Shown in pieces: positions 2 through 16,864 of a stretch of DNA of 20,144 bases (position 1 is its first letter; each line of letters opens with the position of its first letter). The translations under genes were made by a program, and so were the position numbers. Under the pieces are notes generated by a model. The model was not told the origin of the DNA, did not search any database, and was given only the letters and a program-made list of their open reading frames with translations. Source of the stretch: a virus; the IMG/VR virus record IMGVR_UViG_3300021960_000683, positions 1 to 20,144 of that record. One strand, 5' to 3'.

Positions 2-532
2 AAGTCGCCCAAAAATAACCGCAACGCTGCCGACTTCTACGCAACCCCACCCGAATGCACCATCGCGCTGCTCAATAGATTTGAGTGGCTGTTCAGAGGT
101 CGGCGCATCTGGGAGCCAGCTTGCGGCGATGGGGCGATCTCAAAAGTCTTGGAGCTGCGAGGCTTCAGAGTGGTATCTTCGGATCTACATGATCGGGGAT
201 ATGGCGAAAGCAACATGAACTTTCTGAACGCAGAATGCGCCTGTGATGCCATCATTACCAACCCGCCATTTAATCTGGCCGCTGACTTCATTGAGCGATG
301 CGCCGAAAAGAAAGTGCCGTTTGCAATGCTTACCAAGGCCACATTTTGGCACGCTAAGAAACGGCAGCGACTGTTCAGGCAAACCAAACCAATGGCGATC
401 ATAGCTATGACGTGGAGGCCAGCCATGTCACCAGAGAGGGGCAAGAGCGCCACTATGGATTTCATCTGGACCGTATGGGGATCTATCCCAAATCACACAA
501 CAGAATACATTTTGGCAGGGAAAGACCAGTGA
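2..532 (+). CDS. DNA N6-adenine methyltransferase, 5' end outside window
   Basis: Class I SAM-dependent methyltransferase acting on adenine in DNA. The frame is open from base 2, so the true start lies upstream; 176 residues are visible. Motifs seen (counted from base 2): DFYATPP at 11-17, common near the N-terminus of phage adenine methylases; the SAM-binding loop EPACGDGAI at 38-46; an acidic residue after the next strand (SSD, 59-61); and catalytic motif IV NPPF at 87-90. The N-terminal position of DFYATPP suggests only a few residues are missing. No restriction endonuclease or specificity subunit is adjacent, so an orphan methylase that modifies phage DNA against host restriction, or marks it for regulation, is the likely role. 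The stop overlaps the next gene in GTGA form. The family call is firm; target sequence and biological role are inferred. Confidence 0.88.
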   Translation, partial: KSPKNNRNAADFYATPPECTIALLNRFEWLFRGRRIWEPACGDGAISKVLELRGFRVVSSDLHDRGYGESNMNFLNAECACDAIITNPPFNLAADFIERCAEKKVPFAMLTKATFWHAKKRQRLFRQTKPMAIIAMTWRPAMSPERGKSATMDFIWTVWGSIPNHTTEYILAGKDQ

Positions 533-860: not shown

Positions 861-867
861 GGCGATG

Positions 868-955
868 GCATTTATTGCAGTATTTATTGCAGCTCAAGGT
901 GGAGCTGTTTTGCTTAACAATATCAAGGCGTTAACAATTAATGTATTTATTGCAA
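868..955 (+). repeat. Iteron-like 13-mer repeats, three copies
   Basis: GCATTTATTGCAG at 868-880 and GTATTTATTGCAG at 880-892 form a tandem pair with a 12-base period, about one helical turn. A third copy, GTATTTATTGCAA, is at 943-955. The core ATTTATTGCA is identical in all three. The third copy also creates the perfect palindrome TTATTGCAATAA (947-958). Such spacing suits cooperative binding of an initiator or repressor; the MarR-type protein at 2095-2430 is one possible partner, with no direct evidence. Confidence 0.7.
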
Positions 956-994
956 TAATGCAGTCCAGTATTAGTACCTGTGGGTGGCCCCATG

Positions 995-1018
995 TCTCTC
1001 CCCCAGAGGGGGGAGGGA
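995..1018 (+). other. Strong G/C hairpin in AT-rich region
   Basis: Pyrimidine arm TCTCTCCCCC (995-1004) pairs with GGGGGAGGGA (1009-1018) around the loop AGAG. This gives a 10-bp stem with one G-T wobble. No T-run follows on either strand, so it is not a typical intrinsic terminator. It could be a pause site, an mRNA stabiliser or part of an origin. Confidence 0.55.
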
Positions 1019-1095
1019 AGGTAGTAAGTAATAATGTAATAAATATATATAATATATATATATACTATAAGAATAAGGGGTTTGGGCTAGGTTAT

Positions 1096-1123
1096 TTAAT
1101 GCAGTCGGGGCCACTGCAATTAA
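1096..1123 (+). other. Second inverted repeat in the non-coding region
   Basis: TTAATGCAGT (1096-1105) pairs with ACTGC and ATTAA on the far side (1113-1123, one bulged A) around a 7-base loop. It follows the TA tract and lies upstream of the promoter-like site. It may be a protein-binding dyad; no function can be assigned. Confidence 0.4.
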
Positions 1124-1158
1124 TATGCATTAAATGTAATTAATTTTATCTGTGACAC

Positions 1159-1186
1159 TTGTAATCTGTTCCAGATGGCATATATG
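1159..1186 (+). promoter_or_regulatory. Weak sigma70-like promoter for the accessory operon
   Basis: TTGTAA (1159-1164) and TATATG (1181-1186) are separated by 16 bases and lie about 30 bases before the operon's first gene. Each box matches its consensus in only four of six positions. A short dyad ATCTG-TTC-CAGAT (1164-1176) sits between them where an operator would be expected. The position supports the call more than the sequence does. Confidence 0.3.
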
Positions 1187-1212
1187 TTAGTTATAGAGAG
1201 AGAGGAAACAAA

Positions 1213-3243: not shown

Positions 3244-3732
3244 ATGGCAAAGAAAAAATCTAAAAACCCCGTTGGAAGACCCAAGTTCGAAGTCACTGAA
3301 GAAGTGCTGCAAAGAACAGAAAGAGCAATGGCGCAAGGCTTAACGAAAGAACAATGCGCTGCTGCACTGGGAATTTCACGCTCTAAATTCTTTGAAATTC
3401 AGGAACAAAATGTGGATTTCTTGGACGCTATAAAAAGGGGAGAGGCGATGGGGATCGAAGAAGTAACCAACGCGCTCTTCGAAAATGCAACGCTGGAACG
3501 CGATAACACAGCCATCATCTTCTACCTGAAGAACCGCGCAGGATGGGTGGATAAGCAGGAGCATAAGGTTGCAACAGAAACAACGGTCACACTCGACCTA
3601 ACAAGGATTGGCGTTAATGAACTCGCAGCAATTGAAAGAGCTTTTGAGCAATCTAACTCTGGAGCAAGTCAGAGCGGAGAAATACCGCAGATCATTGAGG
3701 GAGTTTACGAAAGCAGCTTGGCCGACGATTGA
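3244..3732 (+). CDS. terS: Terminase small subunit
   Basis: A 162-residue DNA-recognition subunit of the packaging motor. A basic N-terminus (MAKKKSKNPVGRPKFE) leads into a homeodomain-like helix-turn-helix, roughly residues 22-55 (GLTKEQCAAALGISRSKFFE). An acidic and hydrophobic region around ENATLERDNTAIIFYLKNRAGW is typical of phage small terminases, and the tail is Glu/Ser-rich. It is expected to form a ring that binds the pac or cos site and hands DNA to the large subunit. The start has GAAAGG nearby and follows the terminator directly. The last 116 bases overlap the large-subunit gene in another frame. Family call is secure from the sequence pattern plus the neighbour. Confidence 0.88.
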   Translation: MAKKKSKNPVGRPKFEVTEEVLQRTERAMAQGLTKEQCAAALGISRSKFFEIQEQNVDFLDAIKRGEAMGIEEVTNALFENATLERDNTAIIFYLKNRAGWVDKQEHKVATETTVTLDLTRIGVNELAAIERAFEQSNSGASQSGEIPQIIEGVYESSLADD

Positions 3733-5125
3733 ACCGGGCGTTGACTTTCAAAACAACTGGCATGTCGATGCAATCAGCGATCACCTCCAAGCAGTGGCAG
3801 AAGGCGACATCAAACGCCTGATCATTAACGTGCCGCCACGCCACATGAAGTCGATCAGCGTGGCCGTTGCGCTGCCAGCTTGGACGTGGACCCACCAGCC
3901 AGAAAAGAAGTTTCTGTACGCATCATATGCCTCTTCCCTGTCCATCAGAGACAGCACCAAGTGCCGCCGCCTGATCGACAGCCCGTGGTACAAGCGCCAC
4001 TTCGGTGAAAAGTTCGAGCTAACTGGCGATCAAAACCAGAAGCAAAGGTTCGAAAACGATAAGACAGGATACCGCATAGCAACGTCTGTCGGCGGCGCTC
4101 TGACTGGTGATGGCGGTGACATCATCTGCATCGATGATCCGCACAACGTAGTGGACAGCGACAGCTCCAAGGTGCGTGAAGGCGTTCTAGAGTGGTGGGA
4201 TCAGGCCATGCAGACCCGACTTAACGATCCGCGCACTGGTGCTTTTGTCATCATCATGCAGCGCGTCCATGAGCTGGATCTCACAGGACATATCTTGGCC
4301 AATGAGCTGGGCAATGAGTGGAACCACCTATGCCTGCCTGCCAGATACGAAATCGGCCACCCAACCCCAAGCAAATCAGTGCTGGGCTTCTCAGATCCGC
4401 GCACCAAAGAAGGCGAGCTGCTGTGGCCTGAACGCATTGATGACAGAACCCTGTCAACATTAGAGCGTAGCCTTGGATCTTACGCAGCCGCAGGCCAGCT
4501 ACAGCAGCGGCCATCGCCAAAAGGTGGTGGAATCCTAAAGGCAAGCTGGTGGGTTCCTTGGGAAAAGGAAGACTTGCCCGACATCGAATATGTTCTGCAA
4601 TCATACGATACTGCATTCGAAGCAAAGGAAAGTTCCAGCTTCAGCGCCAGAACCACTTGGGGCGTGTTTACCCATAAAGGCGCAACATGCGCCATTGTGC
4701 TGGAGGCATGGTGGGATAAGGTAAGCTATCCTGACCTACGCAGGCTGGCCCAAGAGGCTTACGAAGAGTGGGAGCCAGACGCTGTGCTGATTGAAAAGAA
4801 GGCGTCAGGGCAATCCCTGCTGCAAGACTTACGCATGGCAGGCGTACCAGTTTTGGCCTACAGTCCAGATCGTGACAAGGAGGCTCGCGCCCATGCCAGC
4901 TCCGCACTTTTGGAGGATGGAAGGATTTTCTTCCCTTCCAGCAGAAAATGGGCTAAAGATTTAATTGATATATGCGCGGCGTTCCCAGCACATCCCAATG
5001 ATGATGTTGTTGATACATGCACACAGGCTTGGCTACGGTTGCGAAAAGGATGGTTTGTGGGTCATAGTGAAGATCCAGATGATGACGATTTTGTAGAAAC
5101 AAGAAGGATGACGCTCTATGGCTGA
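3617..5125 (+). CDS. terL: Terminase large subunit
   Basis: A 502-residue ATPase-nuclease that drives DNA packaging. The N-terminal ATPase has a variant Walker A VPPRHMKS (72-79), Walker B IICIDDPH (169-176) and the coupling-like segment VIIMQR. The C-terminal RNase H-like nuclease shows SYDTAF (Asp330), LIEKKASGQ (Glu393) and a final NDDVVD (462-467). The C-terminus is acidic (DPDDDD). The start at ATG 3617 is preferred to the in-frame TTG at 3608. No later Met precedes the conserved SLREFTKAAWPTIEPG segment, so the overlap with terS is real. Headful or cos cutting cannot be told from this. The stop overlaps the portal gene by eight bases. Confidence 0.96.
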   Translation: MNSQQLKELLSNLTLEQVRAEKYRRSLREFTKAAWPTIEPGVDFQNNWHVDAISDHLQAVAEGDIKRLIINVPPRHMKSISVAVALPAWTWTHQPEKKFLYASYASSLSIRDSTKCRRLIDSPWYKRHFGEKFELTGDQNQKQRFENDKTGYRIATSVGGALTGDGGDIICIDDPHNVVDSDSSKVREGVLEWWDQAMQTRLNDPRTGAFVIIMQRVHELDLTGHILANELGNEWNHLCLPARYEIGHPTPSKSVLGFSDPRTKEGELLWPERIDDRTLSTLERSLGSYAAAGQLQQRPSPKGGGILKASWWVPWEKEDLPDIEYVLQSYDTAFEAKESSSFSARTTWGVFTHKGATCAIVLEAWWDKVSYPDLRRLAQEAYEEWEPDAVLIEKKASGQSLLQDLRMAGVPVLAYSPDRDKEARAHASSALLEDGRIFFPSSRKWAKDLIDICAAFPAHPNDDVVDTCTQAWLRLRKGWFVGHSEDPDDDDFVETRRMTLYG

Positions 5126-15304: not shown

Positions 15305-16864
15305 ATGGCAAACCCAGTAAAAGGTGCAATCAGTCAGCTTGGTGAAAGAGTTATTGACACAAGTAAAGGTTTTTTCGAGGCGATTCGTGATGCCTTTGGA
15401 AGAGAAAGCGCAGGCAATTTTCAAGAATTACAAAGACAAATTCGAATTATGCCATCTGTTCCAGAACCAACAGTAGACAACGCGCCTTTGATGGCAGTGC
15501 ATAATACAAGCCTTGAAGGTATATTGGCCGCAAATGAAATCGGCGGCATTCCCAGCCCATCTATTGGCATTTCAGATCCAGCAAACTTGCAAAAGTTTGG
15601 CGAGATTAGCTTGATTATGGACCCCAATAAGCTAAACCCTAGAATGAACATCTATCCGACAGATGCTTACACAGGCAGACAGCCCAAAAGTAAATTAAAA
15701 ATAAAAAATACAAAACAATTTAAAGAACGTCTTAAAGCAGACATAAATTTTGGCCACATAGCTGACGATACTGCCAAATATTTATCATCAGGAGCATTAG
15801 AAGATTCTGACTTAGATTTAAGAATGGTAAATGCTGCTATAGATTTTGATTTGGTTGACCCAAAAGACTTTGATAGCTTTGGAGAATTGTTTGGAGAAGC
15901 AAGCAGAGCATTAAGAGGTGATGGCCGCACTGCAAGACTTGTCGATAATAAAGAACTTCTTTCTGCATATGATGGCATTTCAGAATATGCAGATGTAGGG
16001 CGAGTGCTGCCTCCAAAGGATCCATATTATTCTGATGGAAGTCCAAGGCCATACAGACCAGCAACATTATCAACAAGCCTAAAAGATATGCGTGAAGGCA
16101 CATATGGGCCAATGTATTTACCAGCTTCTGAATATGGATCTCAAAACTATGCAGGCGCATTGCGAGCGGCTACATCACGACCATTTCAAAGTATTGATGA
16201 GGTCAAAGGTTCTAGAGGTCAAATTTTTGTTGATGAAAGAGATAATCCAAATTTTAGAACAAACCCTCTTGAAGATTTATTCAGTAAATTTCACGAAGTA
16301 AAATATTCTTTTATTGATGATCTTACAAATAAGTTCAAAAAAACAGAAATCAGAACACGCAGATCCAAAAATGAAGACGGCGAGTTAGTTACAACTCAAG
16401 AGCCAATTACGCGCATGATGGGTATGGATACAGCAAATGAGCTGCTTTTAGCTATAGCGCGAAATGATTCAGACATTGCTCAAACAGCGGCTGTGTCTGA
16501 AGGTTTCGTGTCTATGGACGATATCCCTGCACTTCGGGATGCAGTAAATCGCGTTGGTGAAATCATGCAAAACGCTCCTACAAAGTATTTTGAGGCAAAG
16601 CCAAATTATGCAATGAGCCTCAGTGATTTTGACACTGCTTTGGTTCCTAGAGAGCTTACTGAAGACAAAGAAGTGATGCGGATCTTCAGGGAAAACAATT
16701 TGCCTGTAGCGACTTACACTGACTTTGGTCCAAATAAAGATGAATATAGAGAAGGCGTAATGCGACAAATGAAGGAAAATTTGTTTTCTGTACCTCTGGC
16801 TGGTACAGTTGGGTACGGCGCGTTGCAAAGCGTAGGAGAAGATGATGGCCAAAGCGGCAGTTAA
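15305..16864 (+). CDS. Second polyvalent-protein-like gene
   Basis: A 519-residue protein. The N-terminal 130 residues carry AVHNTS (64-69), GGIPSPSIGI (80-89), FGEISLIMDP (98-107) and YPTDAYTGRQP (117-127). I remember this order from the front of large polyvalent and MuF-type phage proteins (VHNxS, then GGxPxPSxxV, then FGxITLI, then DAYTxRxP). The remaining 390 residues are helical and charged, with no motif I know; MSLSDFDTALVPRELTEDKE near 430-450 may be another short domain. The C-terminus has a short hydrophobic patch (FSVPLAGTVGYGALQSV). No signal peptide. A delivered effector or virion-internal protein is plausible; enzymatic activity unproven. Confidence 0.58.
   Translation: MANPVKGAISQLGERVIDTSKGFFEAIRDAFGRESAGNFQELQRQIRIMPSVPEPTVDNAPLMAVHNTSLEGILAANEIGGIPSPSIGISDPANLQKFGEISLIMDPNKLNPRMNIYPTDAYTGRQPKSKLKIKNTKQFKERLKADINFGHIADDTAKYLSSGALEDSDLDLRMVNAAIDFDLVDPKDFDSFGELFGEASRALRGDGRTARLVDNKELLSAYDGISEYADVGRVLPPKDPYYSDGSPRPYRPATLSTSLKDMREGTYGPMYLPASEYGSQNYAGALRAATSRPFQSIDEVKGSRGQIFVDERDNPNFRTNPLEDLFSKFHEVKYSFIDDLTNKFKKTEIRTRRSKNEDGELVTTQEPITRMMGMDTANELLLAIARNDSDIAQTAAVSEGFVSMDDIPALRDAVNRVGEIMQNAPTKYFEAKPNYAMSLSDFDTALVPRELTEDKEVMRIFRENNLPVATYTDFGPNKDEYREGVMRQMKENLFSVPLAGTVGYGALQSVGEDDGQSGS

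Follow-up and report, generated by a model that had tools for sequence, protein, structure and literature searches.

Background

In bacteriophage P4, as set out in passages of PMC4234260, a single protein, alpha, recognises the repeats of an iteron-type origin by means of a winged helix and then unwinds and primes the DNA; its primase is of the bacterial Toprim type. Passages of the same source describe ORF904 of pRN1, which unites a prim-pol, a helicase and a C-terminal winged helix in one protein, with a small regulator gene ahead of the prim-pol gene and, 3' of it, an origin in the form of a ~100-nt stem-loop without iterons. Phage NrS-1 has a prim-pol with a C-terminal helicase-like region, which reads TTTGGTTA on the template and is thought to start at a specific site (PMC8718748, PMC7102993); the passages of these papers only propose the replication start site, and a winged-helix/iteron pair is not described in them. 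Among the papers listed on CRP-901, on the NrS-1 polymerase, on roseophage origins and on the origins of prim-pol/DUF3987 phages, no description of the origin module reported here was found.

The module is a stretch of ~300 bp that lies in a non-coding gap of a roseophage genome and consists of half-sites TTTATTGCA, a C-run and a G-run, a TA tract, an invariant CTATAAGAATAAGG block and then inverted half-sites. It is best interpreted as an iteron-type origin whose reader is the prim-pol itself, a pairing of a P4-like origin with an enzyme like those of pRN1 and NrS-1. As in P4, the origin is of the iteron type and recognition by a winged helix is predicted (PMC4234260); unlike P4 alpha, however, the enzyme is an archaeo-eukaryotic Prim-Pol (PF09250, E 1.8e-19) with a DUF3987 part, and no Toprim-type primase was among the domain matches listed for it. 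As in pRN1 (PMC4234260), prim-pol, helicase and a predicted C-terminal winged helix share one protein, the putative origin lies 3' of the prim-pol gene and a small regulator gene precedes that gene, but the module has iterons and a TA tract in place of the pRN1 stem-loop. A long stem-loop of the pRN1 kind is absent from the module, where the only hairpin is that of the C-run and G-run, which in most representatives is weak when set against shuffled sequences. Since a defining feature of each family was looked for and is lacking, the module is regarded as a member of neither the P4 nor the pRN1 family. The resemblance to NrS-1 lies in the enzyme, a phage prim-pol with a C-terminal helicase-like region; TTTGGTTA, the signal read by the NrS-1 polymerase (PMC8718748, PMC7102993), is not conserved here and was rejected as a candidate: in clade A the block reads AAGGGGTTTGGGCT, and elsewhere it reads AAGGTACTTAGGG, AAGGTGTTTCG or AAGGAGTAT. 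Both kinds of system are known, and the arrangement proposed here joins P4-type iteron recognition by a winged helix with a prim-pol of the pRN1/NrS-1 type.

Genomic context of the module

The stretch analysed (the window) is a virus record of 20,144 bases, a fragment of a CRP-901-type roseophage, whose TerL shares 98.8% identity with its counterpart in Roseobacter phage CRP-901 and 94.6% with the one in CRP-902. These two lytic phages of CHAB-I-5 strain FZCC0083 (PMC10149686) belong to the same group as the window; in the text of that paper covered by a term search, neither an origin site of replication nor intergenic regions are mentioned. In complete relatives, read in the orientation of the window, the order is HTH (gp12), prim-pol (gp11), small genes, methyltransferase, a small gene, the 861-1212 gap, a variable small-gene cassette, terminase and portal. 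The window begins within the methyltransferase, and its own prim-pol gene is therefore absent from the record, lying just to the left. Over the compared stretch the modules of L088 and L001 are identical to that of the window, L001 being nearly identical to the window as such, and the prim-pol upstream in L088 is 99% identical to gp11; from L088, with its matching module and near-gp11 prim-pol, we infer the kind of enzyme that the window's own phage would carry. No tRNA or tmRNA was detected in the window, and an Rfam search of 600-1600 at E up to 1 returned no match.

Architecture and conservation

The elements named in the preliminary description, namely three 13-mers, a TTAACAAT pair, a TA run and two hairpins, are all present where it placed them (Table 1). 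The 13-mers GYATTTATTGCAR are exact at 868-880, 880-892 and 943-955, with spacings of 12 and 63, and have no other exact copy anywhere in the window; as the count with up to two mismatches is only 6 against 3.6 expected in the window, their strength lies in three exact, clustered copies. The core TTTA[TC]TGCA occurs three times in the 20-kb window, three times in the 53-kb genome of CRP-901 and twice in the 52-kb genome of CRP-902, every copy being on the coding strand and at the gap locus alone; its complement has one further occurrence in the window, at 16540.

Table 1. Features at and around the candidate origin (window coordinates)
Feature	Position	Strand	Remarks
DNA methyltransferase	2..532	+	Among the genes between prim-pol and module in the window's clade
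ORF over the module, homologue of CRP-901 gp06	865..1143	+	Judged non-coding
Box A, two forward half-sites TTTATTGCA	871..891 (871-879, 883-891)	+	12-bp period
Box B, forward half-site 946-954	946..962	+	Near-invariant in 31 relatives; reverse half-site 951-958 overlaps the forward one, palindrome TTATTGCAATAA; ATAATGCA at 955-962
Two TTAACAAT copies, at 914 and 931	914..938	+	Unconserved
C-run facing G-run, hairpin-capable	995..1018 (995-1004/1009-1018)	+	Without T-run
A+T tract (TA run ~1038-1069)	1030..1069		Candidate DNA-unwinding element
Block CTATAAGAATAAGGGGTTTGGG	1065..1086	+	Almost invariant in clade A
Box C, forward TTTAATGCA 1095-1103; reverse half-sites 1115-1123 (TTAATTGCA) and 1126-1134 (TTTAATGCA)	1094..1135	-	Second dyad
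Promoter-like CTTGTAATC..CATATATG and GA-rich ribosome-binding leader of the downstream gene	1158..1208	+	Outside the conserved core

In two exact pattern scans of a viral collection, the block or box B turned up in 38 and 36 stretches. When 31 unique full regions were aligned, TGCAGTATTTA, ATTTATTGCAATA, CTATAAGAATAAGG, TGCAGT..ACTGCA and GCA(T/G)TAAAT were found to be invariant or near-invariant, TGCAGTATTTA of box A being invariant across all 31, and the stretches between the conserved boxes vary freely. With nhmmer at E<1e-10 the module was found in 122 loci (74 unique) and with a widened profile in 204, one in each; it is likewise single-copy in the complete isolate genomes of CRP-901 and CRP-902, where the candidate origin falls at about 1.6-1.9 kb and 2.25-2.55 kb of the respective records. 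Because many of these loci are overlapping pieces of one contig, unique counts were used for the co-variation described below.

Forward half-sites lie to the left of the AT tract in all 78 regions with enough flank and reverse half-sites to the right in 72 of the 78; each side also has some half-sites facing the other way. The locus has what is expected of an iteron origin, namely several short repeats of one unit at one genomic locus and, in all clades, an adjoining A+T-rich tract, for which unwinding is a candidate role. A TA or TAA tract is found in every clade, and the counterpart of the CTATAAGAATAAGGGGTTTGGG block in the other clades is TATA..AA(T/C)AAGG.

The remaining elements fared differently. 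The second dyad (1094-1103/1126-1135) is perfect. The TTAACAAT repeats, although present, are not conserved: both copies occur in the window and L001 only, with a single copy in L004, and they are probably not part of the module, to judge from the sequences compared. The G/C hairpin is present, with a DNA fold z of -2.9 in the window, and the order of C-run then G-run is kept in all clades and in all representatives read; a z below -2 was, however, obtained in just 6 of the 19 representatives, and a conserved hairpin as a functional unit was rejected, since folding beyond that of shuffles is confined to this minority.

At the edges of the module some further signals were seen. The promoter-like element with its GA-rich leader (CTTGYAATC..CATATATG..GAGAGAGAGGAAA) recurs ahead of several small cassette genes, in CRP-902 and L012 upstream of the o1434 homologue, and is perhaps a shared middle/late promoter; a simple sigma-70 scan gave no match at 1158-1208 and one match overall against 2.1 expected. 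One terminator-like stem-loop with a T-rich tail was found at 889-908 against 0.4 expected, just above chance, and may end the upstream transcript.

Linkage to the prim-pol gene

A search with the prim-pol protein, from which 80 of 192 relatives were taken in, together with a first profile built from 18 aligned regions, showed that 101 of 134 prim-pol loci have the module, without exception downstream and on the same strand. After two further scans and with the widened profile it was found in 184 of 249 prim-pol loci, and in 184/184 it is downstream of prim-pol on the same strand, -3 to +4038 bases past the gene. Of the 65 prim-pol loci without it, 61 end short of the place expected from the nearest relative; the other four are the distant phages L213-L215 and L262, which ends inside another gene. 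In L059 and its relatives the module starts directly past the prim-pol stop codon, with TTTATGTCA/TAATGGCA replacing TTTATTGCA, and the architecture of the module is kept in prim-pol loci where its letters differ.

A predicted reader of the half-sites

AlphaFold2, run on an alignment of 70 rows with L128 left out, predicts a C-terminal winged helix in the prim-pol protein at pLDDT ~88-91 (model residues 207-283, corresponding to aa 687-763); pLDDT is under 50 for model residues 1-118, and hence no helicase fold is claimed. With VIA-align the tail matches known winged helices at Z 8-10 over ~63-74 residues, mostly at 1.6-3 angstroms. As the winged helix is a common fold, only the fold class is claimed for the tail. 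With Foldseek no PDB structure matched at E 0.001 or better, and a PDB sequence search returned nothing useful.

Other candidate readers were considered. The Cro-type HTH protein gp12 was rejected because an identical gp12 occurs in L219 (G-type half-sites) and L221 (T-type). The MarR-type and zinc-ribbon proteins encoded at 1896-2430, which the preliminary description had put forward for binding assays, are unlikely binders, as tblastn found no match to them in the available flanks of L053, L055, L057, L059 and L060, all five of which have the module. The 65-aa protein encoded at 1896-2093 matches an NrdR-like zinc ribbon (PF22811, E 2e-8), without any further domain.

Concerted half-site switch and residue 710

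Between clades all half-sites switch jointly, from TTATTGCA to TTATGGCA, TTATGTCA or AACGTCA. Regions of the TTATTGCA type contain no other 8-mer types, save one TTATGACA in the L106 group, and TTATTGCA is absent from the other clades; the regions of L002 and L005 are truncated and contain no half-site. Such a change of all half-sites of a genome together is what a single reading protein would lead one to expect. In each of the G-type forms TATGGCA, TATGTCA, TTGGCA and AACGTCA, G stands fourth from the end, in place of the T of the other class.

Among 49 full prim-pol sequences, residues 710 and 711 alone separate the two half-site classes. Of two control partitions of the same clades, one gave 9 separators, all at 723-763, and the other (AC against BD) likewise gave two columns, 202 and 237, though these are non-adjacent and outside the tail. 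Across 71 sequences and 283 columns residue 710 is the only perfect separator, and in the predicted structure (model residue 230) it stands at the start of the second helix of the winged helix. With duplicates collapsed to 93 unique tail/region pairs, and L052 left out since its prim-pol is cut before the site, Ser710 goes with TTATTGCA (T) in 58/58 and Arg710 with G-type half-sites in 35/35; the mixed cases SE (L246) and RA (L268) are included and both fit the residue-710 rule.

On the best tree built without the tail, residue 710 and the half-site class each change five times. Well-supported branches force at least two changes, and grouping all R/G sequences in one clade is rejected (p 0.001); the two independent pairs are concordant, but with so few a sign test cannot reach significance. 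The closely related L217 and L226 have opposite residues at 710 and opposite half-sites, with differences at 13 of 200 helicase-side and 18 of 83 tail residues. The tail and the origin lie close together, and recombination that passes them on jointly contributes to the correlation.

Going by protein-DNA contacts in general, the Ser710-T/Arg710-G co-variation would reflect a contact of Arg with G in the half-site. It is conceivable, at a little under an even chance, that one phage polypeptide serves for origin recognition, helicase, primase and polymerase, with residue 710 and the fourth base (Ser-T, Arg-G) forming a one-residue/one-base code that was switched several times and blocks cross-firing among co-infecting relatives or satellites. 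The pairing makes such an origin-recognition code directly testable, and it offers many natural initiator/origin pairs, some closely related and yet opposite in class, on which changes in origin specificity could be studied.

Origin function and alternative explanations

We regard it as highly probable that 865-1135 is the origin from which a CRP-901-type lytic roseophage replicates its DNA, with half-sites that are bound by the winged helix of the phage's own prim-pol/helicase. The half-sites point inward on both sides of a TA-rich putative unwinding element that adjoins the C-run/G-run. The winged helix of the enzyme, encoded just upstream, would bind them; the bound prim-pol would assemble as helicase rings, these would melt the TA tract next to the C-run/G-run, and the Prim-Pol would carry out priming and begin synthesis on the strands so opened. 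For phages with a prim-pol this gives an exact candidate of ~300 bp for the start of replication, in a group of marine phages that is abundant and has an isolated host, and it names the domain and the residue expected to read the half-sites, so that the outcome of a residue swap can be predicted.

The preliminary description had allowed for either an origin or a master operator region. Conservation, architecture, and the linkage and co-variation with prim-pol favour the origin, and the operator reading was not borne out. Under the latter the half-sites would be transcriptional operators, acting on a promoter at 1158-1190 that feeds the small-gene cassette and the terminase genes, with the prim-pol tail or some other regulator as the controlling protein. 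The layout in the window's clade would suit it, as the promoter-like element and ribosome-binding leader come after box C and the module sits between the replication genes and the cassette and packaging genes. Nevertheless we consider it unlikely: the promoter-like element also precedes other cassette genes that have no half-sites (CRP-902, L012), the downstream genes vary by clade whereas the module stays tied to prim-pol, and neither the Cro-type gp12 nor the MarR and zinc-ribbon proteins go along with the half-sites. That tie, with the module directly past the prim-pol stop codon in other clades, also speaks against a packaging site, pac or cos, to which the small terminase subunit encoded ~2 kb downstream would bind; although the terminase genes come next in the window's clade (3244-5125), the letters of the module co-vary with residue 710 of prim-pol, and a packaging role is very improbable.

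Least credible of all is that the gap codes for a small protein and that the repeats are incidental. An open frame, annotated as gp06 in CRP-901, does run through it, and the frame is open in 14 of the 31 aligned relatives; it is broken, however, in the other 17, spacing shifts by 1-4 bases, and the module is preserved as DNA in clades with different letters. Since the frame is mostly broken and length changes are not in threes, the gap is judged non-coding, and the earlier description of it as such holds. The origin reading had also been linked to a switch in GC skew at the gap. No such switch was seen: the cumulative skew of CRP-901 and CRP-902 tracks gene direction, its extremes coinciding with changes of gene direction, and we take the missing switch as weak evidence either way.

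More distant phages

The residue-710 rule is limited to the CRP-901-like prim-pol group, because H188, 1.005.O and JY40 are unclear and the repeats of Mcat11 differ; it is not clear in pCB2051-A or Mcat11. In the Pseudoalteromonas phages C7 and H40/1, whose prim-pol is 31-32% identical over about half the protein, Ser occupies the position aligned with residue 710. A gap of 508-614 bases, in which ACTTATTGCACA-type repeats face inward around a hairpin and an AT tract, adjoins their prim-pol upstream, unlike the downstream module; the repeat layout and the Ser count in favour of the origin reading, the upstream position against it.

The Loktanella phage pCB2051-A has a 511-base gap directly past prim-pol (L213:6324-6834), in which an AT tract lies between two large inverted repeats, one of 41 nt at 93% and one of 56 nt at 79%; this gap is more like pRN1. 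In the Vibrio phages H188 and 1.005.O (L326:1918-2400, L327:772-1236), TATAGAATAAGG lies beside an AT tract near a distant prim-pol (27-28% identity) and resembles the invariant block of the module, but on the other side of the tract. The Moraxella phage Mcat11 (L328:3553-4138) carries CGCAGACA/TGTCTGCAA repeats and an AT-rich stretch directly past prim-pol, with Arg-Asp at the place aligned with 710, and its region may be a further form of this kind of origin.
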